This document shows positions 21,690 to 23,628 of a stretch of DNA of 64,000 nt, one piece after another. The stretch comes from Streptomyces sp. NRRL F-5123. Lineage in GTDB: Bacteria > Actinomycetota > Actinomycetes > Streptomycetales > Streptomycetaceae. A program made the translations under genes and the position numbers. How positions within the stretch are numbered: the stretch's first letter is position 1; each line of letters begins with the position of its first letter. Under the pieces are notes generated by a model, which made no database searches, was not told where the DNA came from, and saw nothing but the letters and a program-made list of their open reading frames with translations. The stretch covers positions 310,001-374,000 of the forward strand of contig NZ_JOHY01000001.1 of NCBI RefSeq assembly GCF_000721495.1, given 5' to 3'.

Positions 21690-22589
21690 GTGAGCGGACC
21701 CGCTTTCCTCGCCGCCTACGCGGCAGCATTCATCCTCGCCGGCATCGGCACCGCCCTCGTACGGTCGGGCCGGAGGAAGCGGCTCGCCGCGGCCCCGGGC
21801 ACCGGCTGGATGCCGCCCGATCCCTACACCGTCGCCGTGCTGAGCGGCGGCCCCACGCGCGTGGTGGACACCGCCGTCCACGCCCTCGTCGCCGAGGGCC
21901 GGTTACGGGTCGGCCGCGACCACCGGATCACGGCCTGCGGTGCCCCCGCGCCTGCCGACGCGGTGGCCGGGGACGTCGTCAACGCGGTGAGCGGCACCCA
22001 CGGCGCGACCCTCACGACGGTACGGGCCCGCGTCGGGCGTGGCGCGGCGGTCGACCAGGTCGTCGCCCACGCCACCGCGCGCGGGCTGCTGCTGACGCCG
22101 GGTCAGCGCGCGTCCTCCGCTCTCGCCGAGCTCGCGCCGATGCTCGCCGTCTTCTGCGCCGGGCTGGGCCGGCTCGGCTACGGCGTCCACCGGCACCACC
22201 CGGTGGGCCTGCTGCTGGCCGAGCTGGTGGTCAGCGCGATGGTCGTGCTGATGGTCGGCAACTCCACGCCGCGCCGCACCCCCGCGGCCGAGCGGATGCT
22301 GGAGCAGGTCCGCGGCACGGCCCCGACCGCCGCGGCCCCCGCGCACGCGGGGTCCTCCGGCGTGCTCGGCGGCGACCCGTTCGCGCCGGCGGCGGTGATG
22401 GGCGTCGCGCTGCTCGGCGCGGGCGCGGTCATGGACGGCGACCTGCGCGAAGCGCTCTTCGGCGGCCTGAACACCTCCTCCGCCGGCGGTGGCGGCGCGA
22501 GCTGCGGGACGGACTCGGGCGGCGGCGACAGCGGTGGCAGCGGGTGCGGCGGCGGCTGCGGGGGCGGTTGCGGCGGGTGCGGCGGATGA
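21690..22589 (+). CDS. TIGR04222 domain membrane protein with Cys/Gly-rich tail
   Basis: A 299-aa membrane protein. The N-terminal helix (FLAAYAAAFILAGIGTALV) precedes a cytoplasmic domain with winged-helix character (LSGGPTRVVDTAVHALVAEGRLRVGRDHRI). A central hydrophobic pair follows (about residues 170-195, HPVGLLLAELVVSAMVVLMVG). The C-terminus ends in about 35 residues of Gly/Ser with five Cys, closing GCGGGCGGGCGGCGG. This is the TIGR04222 family layout. The gene holds a TTA Leu codon (codon 72, 21903-21905), so translation should depend on the bldA tRNA. The start GTG 21690 has GGAGGTGA 5 bp upstream. Its stop overlaps the DUF692 start (ATGA). The tail is the likely substrate of that enzyme, by analogy with MNIO-modified peptides. 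Confidence 0.8.
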   Translation: MSGPAFLAAYAAAFILAGIGTALVRSGRRKRLAAAPGTGWMPPDPYTVAVLSGGPTRVVDTAVHALVAEGRLRVGRDHRITACGAPAPADAVAGDVVNAVSGTHGATLTTVRARVGRGAAVDQVVAHATARGLLLTPGQRASSALAELAPMLAVFCAGLGRLGYGVHRHHPVGLLLAELVVSAMVVLMVGNSTPRRTPAAERMLEQVRGTAPTAAAPAHAGSSGVLGGDPFAPAAVMGVALLGAGAVMDGDLREALFGGLNTSSAGGGGASCGTDSGGGDSGGSGCGGGCGGGCGGCGG

Positions 22590-23413
22590 CGTCCACGGCC
22601 GCGCCCGAGCTGGGCTACGGCATCGGCTGGCGCCGCCCCATCGACCTGACCGTCGAGCGCCTGCCCGGCGTCGACTTCGTCGAGGCCATTGCGGAGGGCC
22701 TCGACCCGCAACGGCTCCTCCCGTCCCTGGCGGTGCTGCGGGAGCGCGGCGTCCCGGTGGTGCCGCACGGCGTCTCGCTGTCGCTGGGCGGTGCGCAGCG
22801 GCCCGACCCGGCGCGGCTCGCGCACCTGGCCGCCTGCGCGCAGGCGCTGGACGCGCCGCTGGTCAGTGAGCACATCGCCTTCACCCGGGCCGGGCAGTGG
22901 GAGGCCGGGCACCTGATCCCCGTGCCCCGGACGTGGGACACCGTCGCCGTCGTCGCGGAGAACGTCAGGATCGCCCAGGACCACCTGCCCGTACCGCTGG
23001 CGCTGGAGAACATCGCACCGCTGCTCGCCTGGCCCGGCGAGGAGCTGACGGAGGGGCAGTTCCTCGCCGAGATCGCCGGCCGCACGGGCGCGCTGCTGCT
23101 CGTGGACGTCGCCAACCTGCACACCGCGCGGGTCAACCTCGGCATCGACCCGCACCAGGTCCTGCGGGAGCTGCCGCTGGAGCGCGTCGGGTACGTCCAC
23201 GTCGCCGGAGGCGTCGAGCGCGACGGGGTGTGGCACGACACCCACACCCACCCCGTGCCCGCGCCCGTGCTCGACCTGCTCGCCGACCTCGCGGGCCGGG
23301 CCCGGCTGCCCGGCGTTCTCCTCGAACGCGACGGCGCCTATCCGACGGACGCGGAACTCGCGGGCGAACTCGCCGCGATCCGCGCCGCCGTCGCGCGCGG
23401 GTGCCGCGTATGA
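22586..23413 (+). CDS. DUF692 family multinuclear iron oxidative enzyme (MNIO)
   Basis: A 275-aa TIM-barrel protein of the DUF692/MNIO family. Known members (MbnB, TglH, ChrH, bufferin enzymes) use two or three iron atoms and oxygen to modify Cys residues of peptides. Likely metal ligands are His61 (PHGVSLS), Glu95/His96 (VSEHIAF), Glu141 (LENIAP), Asp174/Asn177/His179 (VDVANLHT), His205 (HVAGG) and Asp218/His220/His222 (DTHTHP). Start and stop codons overlap the flanking genes (ATGA on both sides), so the three genes are translationally coupled. The probable substrate is the Cys/Gly tail of the TIGR04222 protein made from the same message. The product modification is unknown. Confidence 0.88.
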   Translation: MTSTAAPELGYGIGWRRPIDLTVERLPGVDFVEAIAEGLDPQRLLPSLAVLRERGVPVVPHGVSLSLGGAQRPDPARLAHLAACAQALDAPLVSEHIAFTRAGQWEAGHLIPVPRTWDTVAVVAENVRIAQDHLPVPLALENIAPLLAWPGEELTEGQFLAEIAGRTGALLLVDVANLHTARVNLGIDPHQVLRELPLERVGYVHVAGGVERDGVWHDTHTHPVPAPVLDLLADLAGRARLPGVLLERDGAYPTDAELAGELAAIRAAVARGCRV

Positions 23414-23628
23414 CCACGGCCGAGCGGGCGGCCCTGGGCGCGGCCCAGGAGGCGCTGCTCGCCTCGCTCGTGGGCGGCGCCGACGCCCCGCCGGGCTTCG
23501 ATCCGGAACGCCTGCGCGTCCAGGCCGCCGTCCTGCGCGCCAAGCGCCGGCATGCCGCCGAGGAGTCCCCGCCCGCCCCGCGCCCTCGCCTCTTCCGCCG
23601 CCGCCCGTCCGGCGGGGGGCCGCGGTAG
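23410..23628 (+). CDS. Small protein of MNIO operon, 72 aa
   Basis: A 72-aa soluble protein, MTTAERAALGAAQEALLASL followed by a Gly/Ala/Pro turn, FDPERLRVQAAVLRAKRRHA and a basic Pro/Arg tail. It starts inside the stop codon of the DUF692 gene (ATGA), so it is made with that enzyme. Its two-helix layout recalls the N-terminal part of DUF2063/MbnC-type partners of MNIO enzymes, but at 72 aa it is far shorter than those. It may be a minimal partner that helps bind the substrate. I find no Cys in it, so it is unlikely to be the modified peptide. Confidence 0.7.
   Translation: MTTAERAALGAAQEALLASLVGGADAPPGFDPERLRVQAAVLRAKRRHAAEESPPAPRPRLFRRRPSGGGPR

Follow-up and report, generated by a model that had tools for sequence, protein, structure and literature searches.

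Within the window analysed here, a 64,000-nucleotide stretch of Streptomyces sp. NRRL F-5123 (contig NZ_JOHY01000001.1, positions 310,001 to 374,000), three overlapping genes code for a TIGR04222 membrane protein with a Gly/Ser tail that carries five cysteines (T), an MNIO (DUF692) enzyme (M) and a 72-residue protein (S) that, judging by homology, is a shortened MNIO partner protein. Cys tails of this type track MNIO genes across genomes, imperfectly and with exceptions both ways, and glycine follows their cysteines more often than in shuffled tails. With moderate confidence, we favour the view that the cassette brings together an MNIO substrate fixed in the membrane, the enzyme that acts on it and a minimal partner, M and S converting the tail cysteines, probably to 5-thiooxazole, before export. 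The idea that TIGR04222 tails serve as substrates is already in print. In Antoine et al. 2025 (PMC12452194), the genes preceding MNIO genes gave >1,000 signal-less Cys proteins, of which 40% are TIGR04222, and subsets of these proteins, TIGR04222 tails included, were put forward as MNIO substrates. The cassette is a member of this described kind; what is added here is the assignment of S as a shortened partner, the tracking of Cys tails with the enzyme, the Cys-Gly rule and a charge bias that puts the folded domain of T inside and its tail outside.

The three genes of the cassette

T, M and S follow one another on the + strand and overlap successively by ATGA at both junctions (Table 1). Reading frames and profiles confirm the original prediction, made from the sequence alone, of three genes overlapping in this way, with a five-Cys Gly/Ser tail on a TIGR04222 protein, a DUF692 enzyme and a 72-residue protein. 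The 4-bp T/M overlap recurs in several relatives (e.g., loci L068, L072, L074, L076, L080, L081, L088 and L089). The source genome has a single TIGR04222 match and a single MNIO match, which are T and M themselves. Among named relatives, Actinacidiphila species come nearest; the closest is A. epipremni, with an MNIO 89% identical across residues 1 to 255.

M aligns to positions 2 to 261 of the 263 in the PF05114 profile (252.9 bits, E=4e-75, cut-off 25) and matches the structures 8hci_D (E=3.5e-24) and 3bww_A (E=7.8e-22). Ten of its positions (H61, H96, E141, D174, N177, H205, D218, H220, E247 and D249) are conserved in 75 to 77 of the 78 rows of the alignment, window included, which agrees with the earlier claim of an apparently complete set of metal ligands. 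We take these to be the iron-ligand and proposed catalytic positions, matching HvfB site 3 and FonB Asp249, from motifs and known structures rather than from a superposition. M stays below the NCBIfam equivalog cut-offs for bufferin maturase (174.3 against 310 bits), HvfB (144.4 against 360), ApyH (119.2 against 400), ChrH (53.2 against 600) and MbnB (31.6 against 325). No signal or membrane segment is apparent in M by eye, so modification should come before export.

S, which the original prediction had left unexplained, gave no match at E<=1 in Pfam or NCBIfam. A profile built from five full-length MNIO partners, short forms excluded, does match it (E=1.9e-10 among 14572 six-frame stretches), covering only model positions 14 to 64 of about 154. 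The N-terminal part of S aligns well with full-length partners, and the short form is common to 8 genomes of the genus. Partner homologues are present at 74 of 78 MNIO loci (the window is counted twice), and for a 129-residue relative of S the closest-ranked match was chain C of MbnABC, with a TglHI chain at rank 4. The assignment of S to PME-type 2 goes by its position after the MNIO gene and its homology to longer proteins found there, not by comparison with published PME-type 2 sequences; with 72 residues and no Pfam match at E<=1, it does not qualify as PME-type 1 (DUF2063-RRE). HvfB attains its active iron state only together with its partner (PMC13419390), a dependence that would explain the conservation of a mini-partner. 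The short coverage of S could also be read as decay of the operon in this lineage, with a truncated partner and an inactive enzyme, which is very improbable given that the short form recurs in those 8 genomes with a well-aligned N-terminal part, while M retains its conserved positions and an open frame.

The tail cysteines of T are residues 272, 286, 290, 294 and 297, each followed by glycine. Over 72 Cys-tailed TIGR04222 proteins, the share of lysine plus arginine (K+R) is highest in the third loop (18.7%) and the folded domain (13.6%), 10.0% in the short second loop, and lowest in the tail (2.8%) and ahead of the first hydrophobic segment (3.5%). Under the positive-inside rule, such an asymmetry points to an N-out protein with its folded domain and third loop in the cytoplasm and its tail outside, provided that the weakly hydrophobic last helix (residues 232 to 246 in the AlphaFold 2 [AF2] model) crosses the membrane; the second-loop value separates the two sides poorly. 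The label "bldA-linked" in the original prediction describes no conserved trait. It rests on one TTA codon of T; of 73 Cys-tailed TIGR04222 genes (among them the misframed one of genome G576), 5 contain TTA, none of these belonging to the 12 other genus members counted.

Table 1. Features of the cassette, with positions in the window
Feature	Positions	Strand	Basis
Ribosome-binding site GGAGGTGA, 5 bases upstream of the GTG start of T	21677..21684	+	Read by eye
T, TIGR04222 membrane protein, 299 aa, GTG start	21690..22589	+	NCBIfam TIGR04222 125.3 bits, cut-off 43 (passed); AF2 mean pLDDT 82.5
T residues 34-136, folded domain, K/R-rich side, probably cytoplasmic; predicted helices and short strands	21789..22097	+	K+R 13.6% over 72 Cys-tailed proteins; AF2 secondary structure
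TTA (bldA-type Leu), the only such codon in T, at residue 72; not conserved	21903..21905	+	Codon count
T residues 263-299, putative MNIO substrate: probably disordered Gly/Ser tail containing five Cys-Gly dyads	22476..22586	+	pLDDT < 50 over 265-292 and 294-297
M, MNIO (DUF692, MbnB/TglH/ChrH family) enzyme, 275 aa	22586..23413	+	PF05114; structure-database matches; conserved positions
S, PME-type 2-like MNIO partner shortened to its N-terminal part, 72 aa	23410..23628	+	Hidden Markov model of five full-length partners; alignment

Cysteine tails and MNIO genes across genomes

Tails were classed as Cys-tailed when the last 40 residues held at least two Cys and at least 55% Gly+Ser+Cys, a rule fixed after the tails had been viewed, and linkage meant an MNIO within 3 kb of the TIGR04222 hit. 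They could be read for 154 of the 155 typed hits in a genus sample and a class sample; the window was counted in the latter and left out of the former. Several hits per genome count separately, and the association counts share ancestry, being neither independent nor corrected for relatedness. In the class sample (n=127 hits), 57 Cys-tailed hits were linked and 10 unlinked, against 21 linked and 39 unlinked among the others (Fisher p=6.6e-9), and in the genus sample (n=27) the figures were 13 and 0 against 7 and 7 (p=0.006). The linked Cys tails of the class sample span 23 of 35 genera and 9 families. Scoring the linkage of Cys-tailed TIGR04222 proteins to DUF692 across genomes had been proposed beforehand as a check, and the outcome (57 of 67 class-sample hits against 21 of 60) speaks for the association, with exceptions remaining.

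The association was also counted by genome. Among the 102 genomes of the class sample, those with a Cys tail had an MNIO in 60 cases and none in 3 (G460, G576 and G496), while those with TIGR04222 proteins lacking such a tail had one in 18 and none in 21. The 35 genomes of the genus comprise 17 with both families, 2 with TIGR04222 only, 4 with MNIO only and 12 with neither, a sub-cut-off match in G013 being taken as none. Finally, out of 92 Gly/Ser-rich tails, at least two Cys were present in 77 of the 84 from genomes with an MNIO and in 2 of the 8 from genomes without (p=5.8e-5; the misframed G576 is one of the two); the remaining 6 of these 8 lack Cys within their last 40 residues.

For TIGR04222, no more than 7 candidates per genome were scored in the class and phylum searches, and further copies may be missed; the phylum sample was used for loci only and has no association count of its own. 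Class-sample hits that pass only with neighbouring pieces (G592, G527, G783, G513 and the second of G368) were omitted, as was the second hit of G216, and the second of G634, of the same kind, was included. The genus list omits the below-cut-off match of G013 and the second piece of G017. G460, with a tail cut by a contig end, and the misframed G576 stand as Cys-tailed in the linkage and genome counts and were removed for the genera and Cys-Gly counts. The Cys-tailed gene of G020 (L077, 4989-5684) was counted as tail-less since it loses its frame within the tail, by sequencing error or decay.

The tails also obey a sequence rule. In 69 linked Cys tails, glycine is the next residue after 265 of 304 cysteines, whereas permuting the other residues within each tail gave 196.8 on average and never more than 217 over 2000 rounds, a comparison that corrects neither for relatedness nor for duplicated repeats within tails. 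Glycine before cysteine shows no excess (174 of 302, shuffle mean 196.0). The Cys-Gly excess persists with or without the family of the window, and 65 of the 69 tails lie above the value expected for each. The rule extends beyond MNIO-linked genes, since 7 of 8 unlinked Cys tails are also above their own expectation and the eighth equals it. FonB, a thiooxazole-forming MNIO, prefers the Cys-Gly dyad (Gadgil et al. 2026, PMC13097082).

Possible fate of the tail

In the mechanism that we favour, M, working with S, would oxidise the Cys of the Cys-Gly dyads while the tail of T is still cytosolic, most likely giving 5-thiooxazole, the product formed in bufferins and captophorins. Thanks to the weakly hydrophobic last helix, the tail would then be able to reach the outer face, where, by analogy with the same two systems, it might hold copper or another soft metal near the membrane. 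A more specific version, which we advance tentatively and at somewhat less than even chances, is that an MNIO of Actinomycetota modifies a multi-pass membrane protein, writing 5-thiooxazoles on its tail, with the cytoplasmic domain as recognition module and a two-helix mini-partner, to give an anchored, non-diffusible surface metallophore.

Two other explanations deserve weighing. The MNIO could convert the tail to a different product (another Cys oxidation, a macrocycle or a C-terminal change) that serves sensing, anchoring or secretion instead of metal binding. MNIO products arise on Cys, Asp, Asn and Phe, according to a table in PMC12452194, and the last Cys often lies near the C terminus, with exactly two residues beyond it in 31 of 70 tails. 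We nevertheless regard this as unlikely, as the several spaced Cys-Gly dyads per tail resemble, by analogy, the equivalent sites of thiooxazole peptides. Still less likely, in our judgement, is that the MNIO acts on something else and is only co-regulated with the Cys tail, which would bind metal or a surface in unmodified form. The unlinked Cys tails in genus g291 would suit this explanation, as would the 18 class-sample genomes with MNIO and TIGR04222 but no Cys tail, where the enzymes must act elsewhere. On the other side, the genes called around the window operon include no small Cys-rich one, and Cys is absent from most Gly/Ser-rich tails in MNIO-less genomes, as counted above.

Several points weigh against modification of the tail to thiooxazole by M and S. 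Five class-sample genomes of one genus (G512, G739, G716, G590 and G520) have Cys tails distant from any MNIO, as do single Cys-tailed copies in G641 and G748; in G496, whose contig ends close by, a Cys tail occurs and no MNIO was found. Conversely, besides those 18 genomes, the four of the genus with MNIO only have no TIGR04222 match, and such enzymes imply that MNIOs of this clade have other substrates too. One Cys-tailed MNIO locus (L167) has no visible partner, and S, cut to its N-terminal part, may be weak as a partner. 5-Thiooxazole is the probable product by analogy, and FonB acted on a Cys-Tyr site as well and modified several motifs only once (PMC13097082). The literature searched yielded no mass spectrum or metal measurement for any TIGR04222 protein, and no experimental test of the substrate proposal. 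The original proposal that the tail is the MNIO substrate thus gains from the tracking of Cys tails with the enzyme and loses from the exceptions on both sides; modification and metal binding are what we infer.

Some MNIO neighbourhoods are built differently. Eight loci (L061-L064, L069, L070, L095 and L101) have an MNIO and a partner, with no Cys-tailed TIGR04222 and no small Cys-rich gene among the called neighbours shown; a gene of 367 to 555 residues with eight Cys lies near seven of them (not L063, at a short contig end). A second TIGR04222 subfamily with no Gly/Cys tail stands beside the MNIO in L066 (4153-4893), L067 (8763-9503) and L096 (5353-6147), and adjoins it in named Streptomyces loci too. 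In L064 (6059-6763), from a genome without TIGR04222, a 234-residue gene precedes the MNIO; judging by likeness, this could be the peptidyl-tRNA-hydrolase-like "adjamnio-II" of the literature. In a genome of another class, a 174-residue protein with nine Cys, a possible precursor, is encoded directly upstream of the MNIO (L103, 5077-5601).

Relation to known systems and significance

The cassette shares with the published TIGR04222-MNIO clusters (PMC12452194) a Gly/Ser/Cys-tailed TIGR04222 gene just upstream of the MNIO, and the charge bias agrees with them in placing the tail outside. Antoine et al. describe large periplasmic domains, whereas the charge bias suggests a cytoplasmic folded domain. 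The Cys-Gly test was made here; the passages of that paper drawn on contain none. PME-type 2 partners occur in at least 10% of its TIGR04222-MNIO clusters, and S is shorter than the 115-residue PME-type 2 example in the legend of its Fig. 6. The same paper mentions "adjamnio-V", a cluster of very small proteins that are encoded downstream of MNIO genes and show no structural homology; S might belong to it.

Bufferins and captophorins (PMC13097082) have in common with the cassette an MNIO with a partner and Cys-Gly dyads. They differ in their PME-type 1 partner, S being far shorter and having no DUF2063 match in Pfam, and in that 5-thiooxazole is formed there on a secreted peptide, as opposed to a putative membrane-protein substrate here. 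The methanobactin (MbnBC) and 3-thiaglutamate (TglHI) systems likewise pair an MNIO with a partner; their substrates are peptides, unlike T, and M is far below the MbnB cut-off.

Elsewhere in the window, ARAGORN detected no tRNA genes over its whole length. The intergenic region at 21260-21680 holds several near-copies, in both orientations, of a GCGCGGGGAACTGCGCG-like motif seen by eye.

In the papers cited here, every characterised MNIO substrate that is named is a peptide. If the tail is indeed modified, MNIO chemistry would reach integral membrane proteins and fixed surfaces that bind metal, in Streptomyces and related bacteria. Given the Cys-Gly rule and the mini-partner, the published proposal can be tested directly with three small genes.
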